Of a stretch of 64,000 nucleotides of DNA, positions 3,179-51,323 are shown one piece after another (position 1 is the first letter of the stretch; each line of letters begins with the position of its first letter). This stretch comes from Deltaproteobacteria bacterium (lineage in GTDB: Bacteria; Myxococcota_A; UBA9160; SZUA-336). The notes below the pieces were generated by a model. That model had not been told where the DNA came from. It did not search any database and saw nothing but the letters and a program-made list of their open reading frames with translations. The stretch lies in assembly GCA_016875225.1 (NCBI GenBank), contig VGRW01000006.1, positions 1-64,000 on the forward strand, given 5' to 3'. Both the position numbers and the translations under genes were made by a program.

Positions 3179-4387
3179 TCATGGCGCAGCCACCCCGGCC
3201 GCTCCGTCGCGCACCAGCGAGGCGATCTCGTCGGCCGAATAGCCCAGCTCGCCGAGCAGCTCGCTGGTGTGCTGGCCGTGCACCGGGGGCGCGCGCCGCA
3301 CCGAGGCCGGCGTTCCGTGCAGGTGCAGCGGCGTGCCGGTGAGCGAGATCGGACCGAGCCGCGCGTGCTCGACGCTCGCGATCATTCCGTTGTGGCGGAT
3401 CTGCGGATCGCGCACCACGTCGGGCAGCTCGTTCACCGGCGCCGTCAACACGTCACCGGCGACCAGCTTCGCCATGAGCCGCTCGCGGGGCATGGCTGCG
3501 CAGCACTCGCGAAGCAGATCGTCGAGCTCGTCCGCGTGCGCGAGCCTGCGCTCGATGGTCCGGAAGCGCGGATCGTCCGCCCAGCCCACGTCGAGCGAGG
3601 CGCAGAGCTTGCGGAAGAACTTCTCCGAAGGGCAGGTGATCACGACGCTGCCGCCGTCGCTGCAGGGGTAGATCCCGGAGGGCGCGAAGTACTGGCTGCG
3701 GTTTCCGGTTCGCGGCGCGACCTCTCCGGCCACGAGGTAGCCGCCGATCGCGCTCGTCTGCGCGTGGACCAGCGCGTCGAGGAGCGAGAGGTCGATGCGT
3801 TGCCCGCGTCCGCTCGAGCTTCGCGCGTGCAGCGCGGCCAGCGCGGAGGTCGAGACCAGGAGCGACGTCATCACGTCGACGAGCGGCACGGTCACGCGCA
3901 CGGGATCGCCGTCGGGTTCGCCGTTCAGCGCCAGAAGCCCCGCGAACCCCTGCGCGAGGAAGTCGATTCCGGGCCGGCCCGCGTAGGGGCCGTCCGCGCC
4001 GAACGCGGTCACCCCGATCCAGATGATGTCGGGCCGGTGGCGGCACACCTGCTCGTAGCCGAGCTCGAGCCGCGAGAGCGCGGGCTCGCGCACGTTGGTG
4101 ATCAGGATGTCGGTCGTTCCGAGCAGGCGCGCGAAGGCGCTGCGGGCGCTCTCGCGCTGCAGGTCGAGAACGATGCCGCGCTTGTTGCGGTTCAGGCCCA
4201 GGAACGCGGTCCGCTCGCCGTCGCGCTCCGGGCCCAGGTGCCGGCTGTCGTCGCCGAAGTGCGACTCGACCTTGATCACGTCCGCGCCGAGGTCGCCGAG
4301 CAGGGTGGCGCCGTACGGTCCGGCCAGCATCGTGGCCAGGTCCAGCACGCGAATCCCGTCGAGCGGGCCTTTGGCTACACCGCTCAG
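3179..4387 (-). CDS. CaiB/BaiF family CoA-transferase (1 of 3 in row)
   Basis: About 402 residues; a class III CoA-transferase fold. It begins PLDGIRVLDLATMLAGPYGA, has GADVIKVE and NRNKRGIVLDL, and carries the Asp of GQRIDLSLLDA, which matches the acyl-anhydride-forming Asp of formyl-CoA transferase. The family moves CoA between carboxylic acids or, in a subset, racemises alpha-methylacyl-CoA. No ATG, GTG or TTG lies near the conserved N-terminus. The only plausible codon is a CTG overlapping the stop of the upstream gene (CTGA at 4387-4384), so translation may depend on coupling. It is last in the acx-CaiB operon. Confidence 0.87.
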   Translation of the reverse strand: MSGVAKGPLDGIRVLDLATMLAGPYGATLLGDLGADVIKVESHFGDDSRHLGPERDGERTAFLGLNRNKRGIVLDLQRESARSAFARLLGTTDILITNVREPALSRLELGYEQVCRHRPDIIWIGVTAFGADGPYAGRPGIDFLAQGFAGLLALNGEPDGDPVRVTVPLVDVMTSLLVSTSALAALHARSSSGRGQRIDLSLLDALVHAQTSAIGGYLVAGEVAPRTGNRSQYFAPSGIYPCSDGGSVVITCPSEKFFRKLCASLDVGWADDPRFRTIERRLAHADELDDLLRECCAAMPRERLMAKLVAGDVLTAPVNELPDVVRDPQIRHNGMIASVEHARLGPISLTGTPLHLHGTPASVRRAPPVHGQHTSELLGELGYSADEIASLVRDGAAGVAAP

Positions 4388-5595
4388 GGTATGGCCCCCT
4401 TCGCCTTGAACGCCTCGACCTCGTCCCAGTCGTAGCCGAGCGTCTCGGTCAGGATCAGCTCGGTGTCCTGCCCGAGCTCCGGGCCGAGCGTGCGGACCGA
4501 GCCCGGGGACTTCGACAGACCGACCGGCAGGCCGCGCACCTGGACCTTCCGCTGCACCTCCTCGCAGAAGGTCTCGACGAAGTAGTCGTTCGCCCAGGCC
4601 TGCGGGTCGGTGGCCGCGTCGCGCAGGTTCCCGATCGGGCTCGCGACGATCCCGAGCGGGCGGAAGCGCTCCATCCACTCCGCCGACGTGCGCCGCGAGA
4701 GCGACGCGTCGAGTGACTCGACCAGCGCGATCGCGTGCTCGCGGCGGAGCGCCGGGCTCTCGAAGCGCGGGTCGCTGGCGAGCTGCGGATCGTCGAGCGC
4801 TTCGCGCACCCGCCGCCAGCTCGTGTCGCCCTCGGGCATGCACAGGAAGATCCAGCCGTCGCGGGTCGGGTAGCGATTCCAGAGCGGGTTGCGGACGTCC
4901 TTTCGCGAGACCTGCCGCGAGTGGCGCGGGCTTCGCGTGGCCAGGAACGCCGCAAGGCTCGGTGCGGCGAGGAAGAGCTGCGCGCCGTAGAGCGACGCGT
5001 CGATCCGCTGCCCCCGACCGGTGCGCCGGCGGTGCCGCAGCGCGAGCAGGATTCCCAACGCGGCCAGCAGACCGCCGATCGAGTCCCCGGAGCCCATGCC
5101 CAGGTAGATCGGCGGCGCGCCGGGCTCGCCGAGCCGGGCCATGAGCCCGGTCAGCGCCTGCACCGTCATGTCGAAGGACGGCTTGTCGATGCCGCCGAAC
5201 GGGCCGTAGCCGCTGTTCGTCGCGTAGATCAGCCGCGGGTTGATCGAGCGGAGCTTCTCGTACGAGAGCTCCCAGCGCTCGAGATTCTCCGCGCCCAGGT
5301 TGGTGAGGAAGACGTCCGACTTCTCGACCAGCCGGTACAGGATCTCGCGCGCCTCGGGCTTCTTCAGATCGAGCGCGAGCCCCTTCTTGTTGCGGTTGAT
5401 CACCAGGAAGTACTGGTTCCAGTCGCCGACCGGCAGCGCCTTGATGCTGCGCACCCCGCGGCCCTGATCGCCACCCTGCGGGCGCTCGACCTTGATCACC
5501 TCGGCGCCGAAGTCGGCGAGGTGCTGCGCGGCGACCGGTCCCTGGAACCAGACCGTGAGGTCGACGACGCGAATCCCGTCCAGCGCTCCAGCCAT
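4384..5595 (-). CDS. CaiB/BaiF family CoA-transferase (2 of 3)
   Basis: 403 residues, full length for the family. It starts AGALDGIRVVDLTVWFQGP, with GAEVIKVERPQGGDQGRG, NRNKKGLALDL and the catalytic-Asp motif GQRIDASLYGAQ near residue 185. A 3-bp gap separates it from the preceding CaiB gene (5599) and a 4-bp overlap joins it to the next, so all three are one transcription unit with acxABC. Substrate is not predictable from sequence; proximity to a ketone carboxylase suggests it handles the acid made by carboxylation or a downstream acid. Confidence 0.9.
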   Translation of the reverse strand: MAGALDGIRVVDLTVWFQGPVAAQHLADFGAEVIKVERPQGGDQGRGVRSIKALPVGDWNQYFLVINRNKKGLALDLKKPEAREILYRLVEKSDVFLTNLGAENLERWELSYEKLRSINPRLIYATNSGYGPFGGIDKPSFDMTVQALTGLMARLGEPGAPPIYLGMGSGDSIGGLLAALGILLALRHRRRTGRGQRIDASLYGAQLFLAAPSLAAFLATRSPRHSRQVSRKDVRNPLWNRYPTRDGWIFLCMPEGDTSWRRVREALDDPQLASDPRFESPALRREHAIALVESLDASLSRRTSAEWMERFRPLGIVASPIGNLRDAATDPQAWANDYFVETFCEEVQRKVQVRGLPVGLSKSPGSVRTLGPELGQDTELILTETLGYDWDEVEAFKAKGAIP

Positions 5596-5598
5596 CGG

Positions 5599-6801
5599 CT
5601 AGCCCAGGATCCCGCGCTCGGCGAGCGCGTGGATACGCTCCTCGGTGTAGCCGAGGCGCTCGCGCAGGATCTGCGCGCCGTGCTGGCCCGCGCACGGCGC
5701 GAGGCGCTCGAGGACCGCCGGCGTCTCGCTCATGAAGATCGGAAATCCCAACGTCTGGACCCGGCCGAGGCTCGGATGGTCCAGCGAGAGCACGTAGCGG
5801 TTCAGCTCGGCCTGGGCGTCGCCCGCCGGGAACTCGTAGTCCTCGATCACGTCGGCCGAGAGCTGGCGCTCCGCGAAGACGCGCCGCCAGTGTTCGCCGT
5901 CGTGGCGCAGGAACGCCTGCTCGAGCCTGTCGATCAGCTCCAGACGGTTCTGCTCGCAGCGCTTCTCGTGGCTGTCGAAGCGCGGGTCCGCCGGATCGAT
6001 CCCGACCGCCGCGGCCAGCCCCGGCCACCACCGATCGGTGTCGGGCATGGTCAGCGTCAGCCAGCGGCCGTCCCGTGTCGCGTAGAGCATGCCGCTGCCG
6101 CTCATCGGGTTGCCCGAGTCGCGCCGCGCCACGGGCTGGAGCAGGCGCTCTCCTCCCATCGCCAGGTACGCCTGCAGGTCGAGCGCCGCGCCGTACATGT
6201 TCCCGGCGAAGAGGGAGACGTCCACGAGCTGTCCCTCGCAGCTCCGCTCGCGGTGCTCGAGCGCGGCGAGCACCCCGAAGGCCAGCATCACCGTGGTGTA
6301 GATCTGTCCGCTTCCGGTGTAGACCGGCGGCTCTCCGGGCTGCGGCAGGATCGGCATCATGCCGGTGCGCGCGGCCGCGAGCTCGTCGAGCGCGGGCAGC
6401 TCCCGGTCGGGCCCGTTCGGGCCGAATCCGCTCGCGCGCAGGTAGATCAGCCCGGGATTCGTCCGCGCCAGGCTGTCGTAGTCCAAACCGGCCGCGTGGG
6501 CCTCGTTCGTCGGCCAGTCGCAGACGAGGACGTCGGCGCGGCCGACGAGCTCGCGCAGGATCTCGCCGCCCTCGCGCTGGCCGAGGTCGAGCGCGACGCT
6601 GCGCTTGTTGCGGTTGGCGAGCTCCTCGCGGTAGCTCCAGGCGGCGCGCTCCTCGGGATCGGGAGCGGGCGCGAGCGGAGTGCGTCGGGTCTCGACGCGG
6701 ATCACGTCGGCGCCGAAGTCGCCGAGCATCGCGACGCCGAGCGAGGACCAGAACTCCGTCGCGAGGTCGATCACGACCAGCCCGTCGAGAGCGGAGCTCA
6801 T
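5599..6801 (-). CDS. CaiB/BaiF family CoA-transferase (3 of 3)
   Basis: 400 residues. N-terminus SALDGLVVIDLATEFWSSLG, GADVIRVETRRT, ANRNKRSVALDLG, and catalytic-Asp region GQLVDVSLFAGN. It begins with ATGA overlapping the stop of the acetone-carboxylase gamma-like gene, tying the CaiB trio to the carboxylase by translational coupling. The three paralogues are clearly diverged from one another rather than recent duplicates, so they probably differ in substrate or form hetero-oligomers. Confidence 0.9.
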   Translation of the reverse strand: MSSALDGLVVIDLATEFWSSLGVAMLGDFGADVIRVETRRTPLAPAPDPEERAAWSYREELANRNKRSVALDLGQREGGEILRELVGRADVLVCDWPTNEAHAAGLDYDSLARTNPGLIYLRASGFGPNGPDRELPALDELAAARTGMMPILPQPGEPPVYTGSGQIYTTVMLAFGVLAALEHRERSCEGQLVDVSLFAGNMYGAALDLQAYLAMGGERLLQPVARRDSGNPMSGSGMLYATRDGRWLTLTMPDTDRWWPGLAAAVGIDPADPRFDSHEKRCEQNRLELIDRLEQAFLRHDGEHWRRVFAERQLSADVIEDYEFPAGDAQAELNRYVLSLDHPSLGRVQTLGFPIFMSETPAVLERLAPCAGQHGAQILRERLGYTEERIHALAERGILG

Positions 6802-7352
6802 CGCTTTTCACCCGCGGACCAGCCGCGCACCACCTCGAGCGTCCGGTCCTGGTTCGCCTTGCGGTCGGGGAGCCTTCGCCCGAGCCAGGTCTCGTAGAAC
6901 GTGTCCAGGTCGGGCAGGAATTCGAAGTCGGGCGGGCAGCCGCGCGGCACCGCCTCGACCTCGAGCTGCGCGCCGCAGCCGGGGCAGGTGTATTCGCGGA
7001 TCTGGATCCAGGCCGGGTCCGGCTGCTCGCGGCCGCGGTAGACCTCGCGCAGCTGCTCGCGCGTCTCGCGCACGTGGATCAGCGCCGCGAGCTTCCAGTT
7101 CACGCGGTAGTCGCCGAACTCGTGCCCGCAGCGGCACTTCACCACGCGCTCCGCCTGCTTCTGCACGATCGAGAGACAGGGCGTGAGCGGCAGCAGGATC
7201 CGCTCGCTCCACGGCACCCGGCTCTGCAGCACCGCGATCCACTTGTCGAAGCGGTCCGGATCCTTCGCCTCGCGCATGATCTCCTGCACGCGCGACCACG
7301 GAAGCTTTCCGTCGATCAGTCTCTCGATCTCTTCGCTCTCGTACGACGCCAA
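6798..7352 (-). CDS. acxC: Acetone carboxylase gamma-subunit-like protein
   Basis: 184 residues, close to the ~168-residue gamma subunit of acetone carboxylase. Zinc-type cysteines are visible as VKCRCGHEFGDYRVNWKLAA and YTCPGCGAQLEVE, typical of the acetone carboxylase gamma family. In that enzyme the small subunit completes an (abg)2 complex that carboxylates acetone to acetoacetate with ATP. It follows acxB by 12 bp and overlaps the next CaiB gene by 4 bp. Acetophenone-type or other ketone carboxylases share this subunit, so the exact ketone is uncertain. Confidence 0.85.
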   Translation of the reverse strand: MASYESEEIERLIDGKLPWSRVQEIMREAKDPDRFDKWIAVLQSRVPWSERILLPLTPCLSIVQKQAERVVKCRCGHEFGDYRVNWKLAALIHVRETREQLREVYRGREQPDPAWIQIREYTCPGCGAQLEVEAVPRGCPPDFEFLPDLDTFYETWLGRRLPDRKANQDRTLEVVRGWSAGEKR

Positions 7353-7364
7353 GGGGCCTCCGCG

Positions 7365-9575
7365 CTAGAACTCGAAGTCTTCGGGGAGCTGCCAGAAACC
7401 GCGCAGCTCGGCGGCGTAGCCGGGCGATGCCGCGAGCGACGTGCGCCACATCTGCAGCACCGCGGGGTGCATGCCCTCGGAGGCCTGGATCTTGCGGCGC
7501 TCCGCGCTCCACCAGTCGCGAAACGGCACGCCGCGGCGCAGCCGCTCGCGGCGGATCTCGTCGCGGCGCGCCGCGGTCGCCTCCAGGTCGACCGTCCACT
7601 CGCCGCTCGCGGGATCCTGCGCCGCGATCACGCCGTGGACCTGTCGCGCGACCCACTCGCGCGTCCAGCCCTTCGACAGGTCCGCGCGCACGTGCTCCGG
7701 ATCGCGCTCGAGCGGATCGCCCTGCGCCTGCGCTCCCGAGATCGGGTGCACGACCACGTCGTACTCGTGCAGCGGCTCCGGGGTGACGAAGGGCGCCACG
7801 AGGTCGGGCTCCAGCGTCGTCGCGCGCAGGTGCACGGCGAGATCGGGTGCCTCCGGATCGCCGCGCTCGTGCACCAGCGGCAGGCGCGCGTCGATGCGCT
7901 CCTTCAGGTTCGTGCCGCTCGCGTAGCTCGGCCGGTCCGGCGCGGCGGGGTAGGCGCCGAACATCCCGTGGTTCGCGACGATCTTGCTGCGGATTCCCGC
8001 GCAGCCGCACTGGTAGCTGATGCCCGGCGTGTTCATGATCATCCAGACCGCCGTGTGGCCGAGCCCGCCGCGGAACTTCCCGTAGCCGCCGGAGTCGGGC
8101 TCGACGTTCCGCCCCAGGTAGAGCACCGGCTGATAGGACTCGCCGAACTCGGCGTTTCCGAAGTCCCCGTTCGGCGTGTAGATGCACCAGGCGCTGTTCT
8201 CGCCGTCGGCCATGCCGCGGGCGGGCGAGCCGTTGCTCGCCTGATCGAGCGCGAGCGCGGCCGAGAAATTGCCGTACTGGTCGGTGCCGACGAACTCGGC
8301 CGTCATGGTCGTGGCGGCGCCGGCGGCGACCTCCTCGACGTAGCCGCGCATGTAGTAGAGCCGCCCGAACGCCTCGTACAGCGAGCTCATCCACATCACC
8401 GCGGGCGCCCACGCCACGCCCGACGACGCGAAGTAGTTGGCCGGGAACGGATTCGCCCACGAGCCCTCGGGCGGGGTGTCGAGCGTCCACGCGGCCATCG
8501 GCCCGGAGTTGAACATGTCGAAGCCGACCACGTGCGAGTAGCCGTTCAGAAGCGCCGAGACGAGCGCCGTCGGCGTGATGTTCTCGCCGAACGGCACCCA
8601 GCCGCTCGCGCCCTGCAGCGACAAGCGCAGCCTCGCTTCCGCGTCGATCTCGAGCTCGAGCGGAAGATTGAACAGACAGTCGACGTCCTGCTCCGGCAGC
8701 AGCACGCGCTTGCCCGCCATCGCGAGGTCCTTGAAGTTCGACTTGCGCAGCCGGCCCGGGATCGCCTGTGTCTTCACGCGCATCACCGCGTAGCGGCGGC
8801 TGTCCTCGACGTACTCCTGGATCACGTCCCGGAAATAGTCGCGGCCGTACTTCTCGATCACCTCGAGCACGCGCTCGCGGATCGTGATGCAGCCGGCGAG
8901 CCGGCCGCGCGCGTCGCCCATCACCCAGTCGGGCGTGCGCACGCGCGAGCGGATGCGCATCTCGTACCAGGGGTAGAAGCGGTCCTTCGCGCCGATCTTC
9001 TCCATCGTGACGGGAACGCCGTCGCCGAAGACGCTCGGATTCATGAAGCCGATCGAGCCGGGCACGATGTAGCCCGCGTCGTTGGCGTGGCTCACCGCCG
9101 AGGCCCAGGCGACCAGCTCGCCGCGGTGGAAGATCGGGATCGCGGTGTCGAAGTCGACCGGATGGATGCCGCCGTAGTGCGGATCGTTGTTCTCGAACAC
9201 GTCGCCCGCGGCGATGCCGGGGTCCTCCTCGTAGCCGAGCTCGATCAGCGAGCGCACGAAGAGCGCGAGCAGTCCCGGGTGCGCGGTGATTCCGCGCGAG
9301 GTGCAGACGGCCTCGCCGGTGGGCAGGTGCAGCGCCCAGAGCGCGTCGCCGCCCTCGGTCGCGATCGGCGACGACGAGACCTTGCAGCCGACGGTCCAGC
9401 CGGTGTTGCAGATGTTCTGCAGGATCTGCCAGATCGCCTCGTAGCTGCCCGGGTTCTCCTGCTTGCGGCGCAGCTCGCGCAGGCCGAACAGGTGCCCGGT
9501 CTCCTTCAGCAGCCGGTCGTTCTCGACCAGCCGTCCATGGACCGGTCGCTCGGGATTCGGGACGCTCGCGTTCAT
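7365..9575 (-). CDS. acxB: Acetone carboxylase alpha-like subunit (hydantoinase B/HyuB family)
   Basis: 736 residues, against about 770 for acetone carboxylase alpha. This is the HyuB-fold, metal-containing subunit where carboxylation occurs. The motif NNDPHYGGIHPVD near residue 130 and a following VSHANDAG supply the His/Asp ligands typical of the family's metal site. I chose ATG 9575, which overlaps the acxA stop as ATGA and has AAAGGA upstream, over an in-frame codon further up at 9602. Order acxA-acxB-acxC equals that of Xanthobacter acx operons. Presence of a gamma-type subunit argues against 5-oxoprolinase or hydantoinase. Confidence 0.88.
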   Translation of the reverse strand: MNASVPNPERPVHGRLVENDRLLKETGHLFGLRELRRKQENPGSYEAIWQILQNICNTGWTVGCKVSSSPIATEGGDALWALHLPTGEAVCTSRGITAHPGLLALFVRSLIELGYEEDPGIAAGDVFENNDPHYGGIHPVDFDTAIPIFHRGELVAWASAVSHANDAGYIVPGSIGFMNPSVFGDGVPVTMEKIGAKDRFYPWYEMRIRSRVRTPDWVMGDARGRLAGCITIRERVLEVIEKYGRDYFRDVIQEYVEDSRRYAVMRVKTQAIPGRLRKSNFKDLAMAGKRVLLPEQDVDCLFNLPLELEIDAEARLRLSLQGASGWVPFGENITPTALVSALLNGYSHVVGFDMFNSGPMAAWTLDTPPEGSWANPFPANYFASSGVAWAPAVMWMSSLYEAFGRLYYMRGYVEEVAAGAATTMTAEFVGTDQYGNFSAALALDQASNGSPARGMADGENSAWCIYTPNGDFGNAEFGESYQPVLYLGRNVEPDSGGYGKFRGGLGHTAVWMIMNTPGISYQCGCAGIRSKIVANHGMFGAYPAAPDRPSYASGTNLKERIDARLPLVHERGDPEAPDLAVHLRATTLEPDLVAPFVTPEPLHEYDVVVHPISGAQAQGDPLERDPEHVRADLSKGWTREWVARQVHGVIAAQDPASGEWTVDLEATAARRDEIRRERLRRGVPFRDWWSAERRKIQASEGMHPAVLQMWRTSLAASPGYAAELRGFWQLPEDFEF

Positions 9576-25949: not shown

Positions 25950-28393
25950 CGGTCGCGAAGTCGAGCGGCGCCCTGCACGGCAGGCGCGTGCTCGACCTCG
26001 CGGACGCGAGCGGGGCGTACTGCGGCAAGCTTCTCGCCGACCTGGGCGCCGACGTGATCAAGGTCGAGCCGCCCGACGGCGATCCCTCGCGGCGGCACCC
26101 GCCGTTCCGCGCTCGCGTCGCCCATCCCGACGCGAGCCTGTTCTTCCTGTACATGAACACGAGCAAGCGCGGCGTCGTGCTCGACCTCGCGGAGGCGCGC
26201 GATCGCGAGCGCCTGCTCGAGCTCGCGCGCGGCTCGGATCTCCTGATCGAGGCCTTCCCGCCCGGGCAACTCGACGCGCTCGGCCTCGGCTACGCTGCCC
26301 TGTGTCGCGCGAATCCGAGGCTCGTGCTCACCTCGATCACGGGCTTCGGCCAGACGGGGCCGCGCCGCGGCTGGAAGTCCTCGGACCTGGTCGCGACCGC
26401 GCTCGGCGGCGCGGCCGGCGTGATCGGCGAGGCCGAGGACCCGCCGGTGCGGCTCGCCGGCGAGCAGGCGCACGTGTCGGCGTCGCTGGTCGCCGCGGCG
26501 AGCAGCCTGATCGCGCTCCACCAGCGCGACCGGACCGGGCAGGGCCGGCACGTCGACGTCTCGATCCAGGAGGCGGTGCTCTCGCTCAGTCACATCACCG
26601 GGGTCGGCAAGTACCTCGACGACGGAATCGTGCCGCGCAGGCGCGGCGCGGGGCTGTTCGCATCGGTCCCGTCCGGCACGTATCGGTGTCGCGACGGGCT
26701 CGTCTACCTGATGATCAACCGCCCCGCGCACTGGCAGGCGCTGGCGCGCTGGGTCCACGAGGTGACCGGCAACGAGGAGGTGCTCGCGCCGATCTTCGAC
26801 GGGCCGTCGTCCAATCGCATCGAGTACCGCGAGCTGCTCGACCTGTTCATCGCCGAGCTGACCGAGCGCTTCACGGTGCAGGAGGTCTACCGCGAGGGTC
26901 AGCGCCGCCACATCGCGTTCACTCCGGTGAACGGCGCCGCGGCGCTGATCGAAGACCCGCAGCTCGAAGCGCGCGGATTCTTCGCCGAGCTCGCGCACCC
27001 CGTGGCGGGGGCGATGCGCATGCCCGGCGCTCCGTACCGGCTCTCGCGCACGCCCTGGCGGATGACTCGGCCGGCGCCGCGTCCGGGCGAGCACCAGACC
27101 GAGATCCTCGGCGGCGAGCCGCCGCTGCGTGCGCGCACGTACGCCGCTGCCGCGGAATCGGGCGCGGAGCTCGAGGGCCTGCGCGTGCTCGAGTTCAGCT
27201 CCGCGATGGCCGGGCCGTGGATCGGCCGCTTCATGGCGCACTGCGGGGCCGAGGTGATCCGCGTCGAGTCGCGAAAGCGCCCCGACGTGGTGCGCCTGTA
27301 CGTTCCGCCGCGCGCGCCCGAGCTCGGCACCCAGCCGCAGCTCTCGCCGTGGTTCACCGACTGGAACGCGGGCAAGCGCTTCGTCGCGCTCGATCTCGCG
27401 AATCCGCTCGGCGCAGAGCTGGCCCGACGACTGGCCGCCGCCTGCGGCGTGGTGATCGAGAACCAGCGCGCCGGCGTGATGGAGAAGCTGGGACTCGGCT
27501 ACCGCGAGCTCGCACGCGCCCGCCCCGACCTGGTCATGCTCTCGAGCTCGGGCTTCGGCGACACCGGCCCGTGTCGCAGCTACGTCACCTGGGGCCCGAA
27601 CATCGAGGCGCTCTCCGGCCTCGCGGAGCTCTCCGGCTTTGCCGGCCGCTCCTGCACCATGACCCAGTACGCCTACCCCGACGGCCTCTCCGCGCTTCAC
27701 GGCCTGGTCGCGCTGATGGCCGCGCTCGATCACCGCGCGCGAACGGGCGAGGGCCAGCACATCGACCTGTCTCAGCTCGAGGCGACCGTTGCCTCGATCG
27801 GCCACGCGCTGCTCGAGCAGCTCGCCGACGGAGTCACGCCCGCACGGCGCGGCAACCGCTCGACCTGGGCCGCCCCGCACGACTGCTATCCCTGCCGCGG
27901 CGAAGACCGGTGGTGCGCGATCGCGGTGACGAGCGACGCGGAGTGGGCCGCGCTCTGCCGCGCGATCGGCCGTCCCGACTGGGCCGCGGATTCGCGCCTG
28001 GCGCACGCGGCGGGCCGCCTCGCGCACGCCGACGAGCTCGACGCCGGCATCTCGGCCTGGACCCGCGAGCGCGACGACATTCAAGTGATGGATCTGCTGC
28101 AGCGCGCCGGAGTTCCCGCCGGCGCGGTGCAGGACACCCGCGACCAGCACGAGCGCGACCCCCACCTGGCCGCACGCGGATTCTTCGAGGAGCTCGAGCA
28201 CTACAAGAAGGGAAGGGTGACCGCGACCGGAATCCCGCTCGGCCTGGGCCCGCGAACCCGCCCGCGTCTCCCCGCCGGCGCCGCCCTGGGCCAGGACAAC
28301 ACGTACGTGTTCCGCGAAATCCTCGGCCTGTCGGCCGACGAGTTCCGCGAGCACGTCGAGGCCGGCGCGATCGAGATGTCCGACGCCGAGTGA
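25946..28393 (+). CDS. Tandem double-domain CaiB/BaiF CoA-transferase
   Basis: 815 residues, two complete CaiB/BaiF domains in one chain. Domain 1 (about 10-395): HGRRVLDLADASGAY, GADVIKVEPPDGD, catalytic Asp204 in GRHVDVSIQEA. Domain 2 (from about 407): EGLRVLEFSSAMAGPW, GAEVIRVESRKRPD, Asp607 in GQHIDLSQLEA. Class III CoA-transferases are interlocked dimers, so a fused pair can make an intramolecular dimer. Both Asp residues are present. Last gene of the igr-like operon, followed by a convergent SDR. A related fusion is at 49122. Confidence 0.9.
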   Translation: MTVAKSSGALHGRRVLDLADASGAYCGKLLADLGADVIKVEPPDGDPSRRHPPFRARVAHPDASLFFLYMNTSKRGVVLDLAEARDRERLLELARGSDLLIEAFPPGQLDALGLGYAALCRANPRLVLTSITGFGQTGPRRGWKSSDLVATALGGAAGVIGEAEDPPVRLAGEQAHVSASLVAAASSLIALHQRDRTGQGRHVDVSIQEAVLSLSHITGVGKYLDDGIVPRRRGAGLFASVPSGTYRCRDGLVYLMINRPAHWQALARWVHEVTGNEEVLAPIFDGPSSNRIEYRELLDLFIAELTERFTVQEVYREGQRRHIAFTPVNGAAALIEDPQLEARGFFAELAHPVAGAMRMPGAPYRLSRTPWRMTRPAPRPGEHQTEILGGEPPLRARTYAAAAESGAELEGLRVLEFSSAMAGPWIGRFMAHCGAEVIRVESRKRPDVVRLYVPPRAPELGTQPQLSPWFTDWNAGKRFVALDLANPLGAELARRLAAACGVVIENQRAGVMEKLGLGYRELARARPDLVMLSSSGFGDTGPCRSYVTWGPNIEALSGLAELSGFAGRSCTMTQYAYPDGLSALHGLVALMAALDHRARTGEGQHIDLSQLEATVASIGHALLEQLADGVTPARRGNRSTWAAPHDCYPCRGEDRWCAIAVTSDAEWAALCRAIGRPDWAADSRLAHAAGRLAHADELDAGISAWTRERDDIQVMDLLQRAGVPAGAVQDTRDQHERDPHLAARGFFEELEHYKKGRVTATGIPLGLGPRTRPRLPAGAALGQDNTYVFREILGLSADEFREHVEAGAIEMSDAE

Positions 28394-48304: not shown

Positions 48305-49128
48305 CGAAGCGAGATCACGTCCTCTTCGAGCTAGCCGACGGCGTAGGCGTGGTCACGCTGAACCGGCCCGATCGCCTGAACGCGGTCACCTGGGACATGG
48401 CCGGAGACGTGGCGCAGCTGTTTCGCGAGATCCGGCAGCGCGACGAGGTCCGCGCTGTGGTGCTCACCGGCGCCGGCCGCGCGTTCTGCTCCGGCGGCGA
48501 CGCGGAGTTCCTGAGCGGATCGGGCGATCGACCGCTGCCCGGGCTCTCGGACCCGAACCAGCCGATGCCGCGCTACCAGCGCAAGACGCCGGCCGGCACG
48601 TTCGCGGACGTGACGAGGATGATCGTCGAAGTGGAGAAGCCCGTGATCGCGGCGATCGCGGGCCCCGCGGTGGGCGCGGGGCTGGCCTACGCGCTGGCCT
48701 GCGATCGCCGCTTCGCCGACACGACGGCGCGAACATCGGCGATCTTCGTGCGGCTCGGCTTCAGCCCCGACTGCGGGCTCAGCTACTTCCTGCCGCGGAT
48801 TGCGGGTGTTTCGAACGCGCTCATGATGGTCGCGACGGGCGACGTCTACGACGCGAAGACATCGCAGTCGATGGGCCTGATCGACGAGCTGGTGCCGGAA
48901 GGGCAGGCGCTCCCGGCCGCGATGGAGTACGCGCGCAGGCTCGCGCGTGGCCCGAGCGTCGCGATCGATCTCGCGCGGCGCGTGATCCACAAGTCCCTCA
49001 CCTCGAGCCTCGAGGAGATGCTCGACTACGAGGCGGTGGTCGCGACGCTCACCGCCGCGACGCGCGACGCGCGAGAGGGAACCTCGTCGTTCGTCGAGAA
49101 GCGCAAGCCGGACTTCAAGGGTTACTGA
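48301..49128 (+). CDS. Enoyl-CoA hydratase/isomerase family protein
   Basis: 275 residues. Crotonase with GVVTLNRPDRLNAVTWDMAG, TGAGRAFCSGGDAEFLSGSG, IAGPAVGAGLAYALACDRRF, FVRLGFSPDCGLSYFLPRI and a C-terminal TSSFVEKRKPDFKG. At the usual second catalytic Glu position the sequence is SPDCG, where Asp may act, as in several hydrolase or isomerase subgroups. ATG overlaps the KstD-like stop. Its 3' end overlaps the convergent CaiB gene by 7 bp. Confidence 0.88.
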   Translation: MTKRDHVLFELADGVGVVTLNRPDRLNAVTWDMAGDVAQLFREIRQRDEVRAVVLTGAGRAFCSGGDAEFLSGSGDRPLPGLSDPNQPMPRYQRKTPAGTFADVTRMIVEVEKPVIAAIAGPAVGAGLAYALACDRRFADTTARTSAIFVRLGFSPDCGLSYFLPRIAGVSNALMMVATGDVYDAKTSQSMGLIDELVPEGQALPAAMEYARRLARGPSVAIDLARRVIHKSLTSSLEEMLDYEAVVATLTAATRDAREGTSSFVEKRKPDFKGY

Positions 49129-51323
49129 TCCAGCTCCTCGAGCTCGCGCATCACCTCGGCGTCGTGCTGCCCCAGGCACGGCGCCGGCCTCCGGTAGCTG
49201 GCGGGAGTCTCGGAGAGGCGGATCGCGCAGCCGGGGGCGTAGCGCAGGCCCGTCTCGGGATGCTCGAGCGCGACCCAGAATCCGCGCGAGGCGAGCTGAG
49301 GATCCCGCGCGAGATCGCGGGCGTCGGCGAGCGCCGCCGCGGTGACTCCGGCGCTCTGCAGCAGGTTCATGAGCGCGATCGGGTCCGAGCTCCGGGTCCA
49401 GGCCGAGATCGCGGCGTCGATCTCGTCGTGGCGGTCGCGTCGCGCCGCCAGTCCGAGCGCCGCCAGCTCCGCGCCAAGCCCGGCGCAGCGGCAGAGCGCG
49501 GCCCACTCGGCGTCGCTCTCGACGCTGATCGCGATCCAGCGATCGCGACCCGCGCACGGGTAGCAGCCCTGCGGCGCACGCTGCGGGCTGCGGTTTCCGG
49601 CGCGGGCGGGGCTGGCGCCGCGGAGCTGCGCCTCCAGAAGCAGATCGCTCGTGAAGTAGAGGCTCGCCTCGAGCATCGACACGTCGACGTGTCGCCCGGG
49701 CCGATCCGGCCGCGCGTCGCGTTCGTGGAGCGCGACCAGCGCTCCGGCGACGGCGACCAGCCCCGACACGGGATCCGGCCAGGCGACACCGGAGCGGATC
49801 GGGCCGGAATCGGCATGACCCATCGAGAGCGAGAATCCGCTGCCCGCCTCGATGGTCGGCCCGAACGCCTTGCGGCTGCTGTGCGGTCCGGTGCTTCCGT
49901 ACCCGGAGATCGAGACGTGCACGATCGCGGGGTCGATCTGGCGCAGCCGCTCGAAGCCCAGCCCCAGGCCGGCCATCACCCCCGGGGCGAAGTTCTCGAT
50001 CACGACGTCGGCGTGTCTCACGAGCCGCTCGAAGACGCGCTTCGCCTCGGCGCGTCTCAGGTCCAGAGTGACTCCGCGCCGGTTGCGCGCCAGCTCGTTG
50101 AATCCACCGTTGCGATTCCACGGCCGCTCGCCCGGCTCGTCGTCGGGATACAGGTGCGTGAGCCGAGCGAGCTCTGGAGCGAGCGCACCGACCCCGCGGG
50201 CGTGCGGCGCCTCGACCAGGATCACGTCCGCGCCGAGATCGCCGAGCAGGCGCGAAGCGAAGGGCCCGGCCCAGACTCGCGACAGGTCCAGCACGCGCAG
50301 TCCGGCGAGCGGACCCGCGCTCGACACGCACGCGGGCGGCGCGGCTGCGGGCTCTGGCACGGACGGTCCCGCGCTCTCGCGCTCGCCGAGCGGGAAGGGG
50401 CTCCGTGGCCGGCGAAGCGCTCGGGCGCTGCCGTCCTCGCGCCAGAAGCCGCGCGCGCGGAGCTGGGGGTCGCCCAGCAGCGCGAGCAGCGGGGGCACGG
50501 GACCGCACGCGCCGCCGGCCGACTGGACGATGCTCGCGATCTCCTCCGCGGCTCGCGCTGCGAGCCACGGCGCGATCGCGGCGTCGAACGCAGCCTTGTT
50601 CCGCGCGATCGAGAGGTCATCGGCGAAGCGCGGGTCGAGCACGAGCTCCGGCATTCCCGCGGCGGCGAGGAACGCGTCGCGCATCGGCTGCGAGGGCAGC
50701 GCGAGCTGCACGAAACCGTCCCGGCACGGGTAGATCCCGACCGGGTGGGGCAAGCCCGGCTGCCGGTTCCCCTCGCGCTCGAGCACGTGCCGCCCGTGCG
50801 ACCACATCGCGTGGGTGTGCTGGTGCATTCCGACCAGGCCCTCGAAGTGACTCACCTCGACGATCTGGCCGCGCCCGGTGCGCTCGCGGACGCGAAGAGC
50901 CGCCAGCGCGCCGATGAACGCTTGTGCGCCGGCCTGGTGCTGAGAAATCCGACCGGGCCGGGCCAACGGCTCGCGCCCGCGCTCGCCGGCGAGCCACGTG
51001 TGGCCGCTGATTGCGTCGTCGGTGAACTCGTTGGAGAGGAAGCGCGCGTAGGGGCCGCTCGAGCCGAACGGCGAGATGCGCACGCGAATCAGCGCCGGAA
51101 GCTCGATCGTATCCGAGAGCGGCGACAGCGGCCCGGGCGCTTCGCTCTCGATCACGACGTCGCAGCGCCCGAGCGCTCGCTCGAACGCCGCGCGCTCGCA
51201 GCGCCTGCCCGGCCGCTCGAGACGGGTCGCGTCCGCTCCGCAGTCGGAGAAGAGCCGGGCCGCGAAGGCGCCGGCCGGCGAGCCCGCGATCTCGAGGATC
51301 CGCAGCGCTTCGAAGGGCTTCAC
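49122..51323 (-). CDS. Tandem CaiB/BaiF CoA-transferase with degenerate N-domain
   Basis: 733 residues with two CaiB/BaiF domains. Domain 1 (1-~345) starts KPFEALRILEIAGSPAGAFA and is shortened between residues 40 and 80. At the catalytic position it has GRGQIVEVSHFEG, i.e. Glu156 instead of Asp. Domain 2 (from ~355) starts AGLRVLDLSRVWAGPFASRL and retains Asp in GRHVDVSMLEASL. So the N-terminal half is probably non-catalytic, giving a pseudo-heterodimer. Weak GTG start. Divergent from the DUF1214 gene by 93 bp. Confidence 0.88.
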   Translation of the reverse strand: MKPFEALRILEIAGSPAGAFAARLFSDCGADATRLERPGRRCERAAFERALGRCDVVIESEAPGPLSPLSDTIELPALIRVRISPFGSSGPYARFLSNEFTDDAISGHTWLAGERGREPLARPGRISQHQAGAQAFIGALAALRVRERTGRGQIVEVSHFEGLVGMHQHTHAMWSHGRHVLEREGNRQPGLPHPVGIYPCRDGFVQLALPSQPMRDAFLAAAGMPELVLDPRFADDLSIARNKAAFDAAIAPWLAARAAEEIASIVQSAGGACGPVPPLLALLGDPQLRARGFWREDGSARALRRPRSPFPLGERESAGPSVPEPAAAPPACVSSAGPLAGLRVLDLSRVWAGPFASRLLGDLGADVILVEAPHARGVGALAPELARLTHLYPDDEPGERPWNRNGGFNELARNRRGVTLDLRRAEAKRVFERLVRHADVVIENFAPGVMAGLGLGFERLRQIDPAIVHVSISGYGSTGPHSSRKAFGPTIEAGSGFSLSMGHADSGPIRSGVAWPDPVSGLVAVAGALVALHERDARPDRPGRHVDVSMLEASLYFTSDLLLEAQLRGASPARAGNRSPQRAPQGCYPCAGRDRWIAISVESDAEWAALCRCAGLGAELAALGLAARRDRHDEIDAAISAWTRSSDPIALMNLLQSAGVTAAALADARDLARDPQLASRGFWVALEHPETGLRYAPGCAIRLSETPASYRRPAPCLGQHDAEVMRELEELDQ

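Follow-up and report, generated by a model that had tools for sequence, protein, structure and literature searches.

A probable single-chain BbsEF-type class III CoA-transferase with one working composite site

One gene of the window, which is the whole 64,000-nucleotide stretch of deltaproteobacterial DNA that was analysed, most likely encodes a single-chain class III CoA-transferase of the BbsEF type, whose two fused halves would fold like an interlocked dimer and form one working composite site. The catalytic aspartate column of the family is occupied by Gln128 in the N-domain and by Asp517 in the C-domain, and the two halves group with the separate subunits BbsE and BbsF, respectively. This arrangement occurs widely, and its broad features were known before.

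Gene and domain architecture

The gene is one uninterrupted reading frame of 733 residues, and its GTG start agrees with the start positions in its relatives. The CoA_transf_3 profile (PF02515) matched the protein in two stretches with an E-value of 1.7e-148 and a score of 495 bits, against a gathering score of 23.3. This match lies far beyond chance; the gene is real and belongs to CoA-transferase family III, as the first-pass annotation had recognized in describing two CaiB/BaiF domains in one chain. The features of the gene are listed in Table 1.

Table 1. Features of the fused CoA-transferase gene (positions in the window)
Feature	Position	Strand	Basis
Whole gene, fused two-domain class III CoA-transferase, 733 aa	49122..51323	-	GTG start, stop included
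N-domain, residues 1-330, putative BbsE-type pseudo-subunit	50334..51323	-	Best solved match 9fn0_A (BbsE), E 8e-27; groups with BbsE
C-domain, residues 334-733, putative BbsF-type catalytic subunit	49125..50324	-	Best solved match 9fn0_B (BbsF), E 1.6e-52; groups with BbsF
Inter-domain linker, residues 315-334	50322..50381	-	Low AlphaFold2 model confidence
Junction residues 37-43 (RPGRRCE), site of about 38 missing residues including the NxxKR segment	51195..51215	-	Alignment
Gln128, catalytic-Asp column of the N-domain (probable dead site)	50940..50942	-	Alignment
Glu156, residue named in the first-pass annotation, outside the catalytic column	50856..50858	-	Alignment
Gln188, aligned with YfdE His233 (partner-supplied, opposite the catalytic Asp); same residue in 12/12 orthologues	50760..50762	-	Alignment; PMC3720670
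Asp517, catalytic residue of the C-domain, present in 43/43 fused proteins	49773..49775	-	Alignment

The AlphaFold2 model of the fused chain, built from a 40-row alignment, had a mean pLDDT of 90.7 and a pTM of 0.93, and only the linker fell below 50. In the Foldseek search with this model, the first three matches were BbsEF chains, with target-normalised TM values of single chains of up to 0.91. The structure prediction proposed in the first-pass annotation thus yielded a confident model with BbsEF as its best fold match.

The N-domain had also been described as shortened, and rightly so, since it lacks about 38 residues that are present in its nearest relative (L038). Among them is the NxxKR segment, which is presumed to contact CoA. 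This segment is retained in the window C-domain, YfdE, YfdW, and BbsF, and it is lost gradually across the relatives of the window N-domain. In the whole genome G000 (3.87 Mb), 32 CoA_transf_3 matches were found, several of which were adjacent or fused pairs.

Catalytic column and composite site

The catalytic column was read from a domain alignment of 148 rows, in which the E. coli reference proteins came from the MG1655 record and BbsE and BbsF were included as partial sequences. Residue 173 of YfdE and residue 169 of YfdW are both Asp in the MG1655 record, and the alignment placed them in one column with Asp178 of BbsF and with Gln128 and Asp517 of the window protein. Covalent catalysis at Asp173 of YfdE was shown through an orthologue mutant, as UctC D177A is inactive (PMC3720670). 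BbsE carries Tyr171 at the same column, and the PDB entry 9fol bears the title 'BbsEF, D178-CoA adduct'. With Gln128 against Asp517 at this column, the active site of the N-domain is very probably dead and that of the C-domain live. The catalytic Asp is confined to the BbsF-type half, as in BbsEF.

The first-pass annotation had arrived at the same conclusion, a probably dead N-domain site within an intramolecular pseudo-heterodimer, but for a reason that does not hold. It had pointed to a Glu, correctly numbered 156, as the substitute for the catalytic Asp of the family. In the alignment, this column contains Thr in the active YfdW, Ser207 in BbsF, and Asp in YfdE, and Glu156 was ruled out as the catalytic position. 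Homologues with Asp at residue 156, which had been named as evidence against the earlier reading, do occur (22 of 43 fused proteins) and have no bearing on catalysis. At the corresponding C-domain position, 33 of these 43 proteins have Glu, and the catalytic Asp is kept in all 43. Judging from these columns, Glu156 is uninformative about catalysis. Similarly, the C-domain was rightly said to keep its Asp, but the residue is Asp517, not Asp547 of the GRHVDVS motif.

The same column was compared across 48 fused proteins, a reduced set; both this set and the orthologous group of the window were picked by similarity to the window protein and do not represent a census. The C-domain had Asp in 48/48, whereas the N-domain had Asp in only 6/48. 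The other N-domains contained Glu (24), Ser (4), His (3), Ala (3), Leu (2), and Tyr (2), with single cases of Pro, Gly, Thr, and Gln. Since six N-domains keep Asp, the loss is not universal. Glu, the commonest residue, often lies within a GGRxxEWxxG motif (e.g., L056, L024, and L063).

Both sites could work if the N-domain were an active transferase that used another nucleophile, either Glu156 or Gln128 itself. An acidic residue is indeed often kept, as shown by the 24 N-domains with Glu at the catalytic column of the wider set and by the acidic residue at position 156 in most members. However, position 156 lies off the active Asp column, the catalytic column itself conserves nothing in the orthologous group of the window (Gln in the window; Pro, His, Thr, Ser, or Glu in its closest relatives), and the NxxKR segment is absent from the window N-domain. 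A second active site is therefore very improbable. For the Asp169-to-Glu mutant of formyl-CoA transferase (PDB 1vgr), which could have served as a control for Glu at this column, the literature search found no activity data.

In YfdE, each active site combines Asp173 of one subunit with His233 of the other (PMC3720670), and the pocket of mesaconyl-CoA transferase is likewise shared by two subunits (PMC9196870). By analogy with YfdE, Asp517 should face the N-domain loop that holds Gln188 in the fused chain. The large domain of the C-half would provide the nucleophile Asp517 to the single composite site, and the small domain of the N-half would provide the facing loop, R183-x-G-N-x-Q188-x-G-x-x-H193-P194. 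At the mirror site, where Gln128 would lie opposite the C-half loop at Ser579, an aspartyl intermediate would be impossible and the presumed CoA pocket would be partly lost.

Conservation of the loops was consistent with this geometry within the orthologous group. From the wide set to the orthologues, the 40-residue stretch with the largest rise in conservation was residues 162-201, which contain the Gln188 loop, while the mirror loop position Ser579 in the C-half was variable. In the wider set, the GNR loop of the C-domain was better conserved than the N-domain loop, and the argument from loop asymmetry is therefore limited to the orthologous group.

Lineage and retention of the two halves

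In the domain tree, a quick tree without bootstrap, one branch (SH-aLRT 99) united 48/48 N-domains with BbsE and the first genes of split pairs, and another (SH-aLRT 100) united 48/48 C-domains with BbsF and the second genes of split pairs. Both halves of the window protein thus have the lineage of a BbsEF-type heteromeric transferase. Pairwise distances of the N- and C-halves were correlated (r 0.955; 0 of 2000 permutations as high), with a correlation of 0.80 among distant pairs. The fused or split label required at least three changes on the N side and at least four on the C side.

Among the fourteen closest Chloroflexota orthologue pairs, dN ranged from 0.067 to 0.167 for the N-domain and from 0.049 to 0.107 for the C-domain, and dS from 0.6 to 1.5. 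The N-domain is under purifying selection in these relatives; it is retained, though it changes faster. Its shortening, together with a divergence faster than that of the C-domain in 98.6% of pairs, might be taken to indicate a decaying remnant without a role. This reading is scarcely credible, as dN/dS lies far below 1 in close relatives, no N-domain segment is better conserved among orthologues than the loop region, the histories of the two halves match as closely as the correlation above indicates, and interlocked dimers require a partner. The N-half of the one-site enzyme would instead be retained for folding and substrate recognition.

More tentatively, the BbsE-type half may represent an ancient line of pseudoenzymes whose catalytic activity was lost early; it would have accompanied the BbsF-type half through repeated fusions and splits as the half for substrate recognition. 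The orthologous group of the window could then form a specificity class of its own, with the invariant Gln188 loop reading the acid. Such a long-standing lineage of pseudo-subunits, fused or split several times, would be the useful point of the comparison. It proposes a testable division of labour, with the nucleophile in the C-half and recognition in the N-half. The comparison also indicates that many proteins labelled simply as CoA transferase are heteromers, in one chain or as pairs, with a single working site. This bears on the way in which they should be annotated and studied by kinetics and mutagenesis.

Known systems, genomic context and possible reaction

The closest known system is BbsEF, the succinyl-CoA:benzylsuccinate CoA-transferase. 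It resembles the window protein in having the catalytic Asp in one half only and in the lineage of its halves, but it consists of two chains instead of one, the identity in the fold match is about 26-32%, and the window N-domain is shortened. YfdE, YfdW, and formyl-CoA transferase, which are oxalate-linked class III enzymes, share the fold, the catalytic Asp, and the two-subunit active site (PMC3720670); they differ in being homodimers of single-domain chains with two live sites.

DddD, the DMSP CoA-transferase/lyase, is a published double-CaiB fusion in one chain (PMC7174347). It was represented in the comparison by a DddD-like protein of S. fredii NGR234 (837 aa), picked only for its double-domain architecture and because this strain carries dddD. 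In DddD itself, Asp602 is the catalytic residue. The DddD-like protein resembles the window protein in having Ser169 in its N-domain and Asp599 in its C-domain. In the tree, both of its domains fall outside the clades of BbsE and BbsF type, although on long branches, and DddD is therefore probably a separate fusion, with the window protein outside its lineage.

The fused DddD acts as both transferase and lyase (PMC7174347, PMC8163506), and alpha-methylacyl-CoA racemase is among the related folds, so the window protein might be an acyl-CoA racemase, an isomerase, or a CoA-transferase/lyase and not a plain transferase. This is unlikely. The His of the GHD motif, which racemase-like rows contain, is replaced by Phe487 in the C-domain and by Asn98 in the N-domain; the C-domain matches BbsF far better than racemase (1.6e-52 vs 2.5e-24); and a lyase like DddD is disfavoured by the separate branching of the DddD-like domains. 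The reaction of the one-site enzyme is probably CoA transfer, with an acyl-CoA as donor and a carboxylic acid as acceptor, via aspartyl anhydride and thioester intermediates.

The CoA-transferase gene and a convergent enoyl-CoA hydratase gene share 7 bases where their 3' ends meet (49122-49128); on its other side, the CoA-transferase gene is divergent from a DUF1214 gene. Other near genes encode a 3-ketosteroid-dehydrogenase-like flavoprotein, two class I CoA-transferase subunits, a TetR regulator, a sulfotransferase, and a glyoxalase-family protein. The near neighbours examined included no recognizable toluene-pathway gene, and they suggest acyl-CoA chemistry other than that of benzylsuccinate. 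Around five orthologue loci, whose flanking genes were annotated with Pfam for clues to the substrate, further CoA-transferase genes were the only neighbour family in common. The seven NCBIfam models that matched the fused protein all scored below their own cut-offs.

CoA-transferase matches were found in 60/60 relatives searched, many covering both domains, and 438 plasmid records contained a region that spanned 80% or more of the query, some of these being gene pairs and not fusions. The possible new subfamily proposed in the first-pass annotation gains little from this distribution, as the architecture is common and has counterparts in the solved two-chain BbsEF and the published fusion DddD. 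Since these two had already revealed the architecture and the pattern of one live site, the gain from the single gene is small. The orthologous group itself includes four further close members in the class of the window (44-57% identity) and thirteen in Chloroflexota (46-53% identity in the best segment). The orthologue in L011 lies in two overlapping frames (5992-7119 and 7022-8428), reflecting either a true gene pair or a sequencing frameshift.

Further CoA-transferase genes were observed in the window. A second fused CoA_transf_3 pair, at about 25973-28390 on the forward strand, has His at the catalytic column of the N-domain and Asp at that of the C-domain. Three CoA-transferase genes lie in a row at 3182-6807 on the reverse strand. 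One gene in this stretch (5602-6807, reverse strand) is without the catalytic Asp, with a gap and Gln in its place, and branches apart from the BbsE-type clade; its product may be an independent pseudo-subunit.
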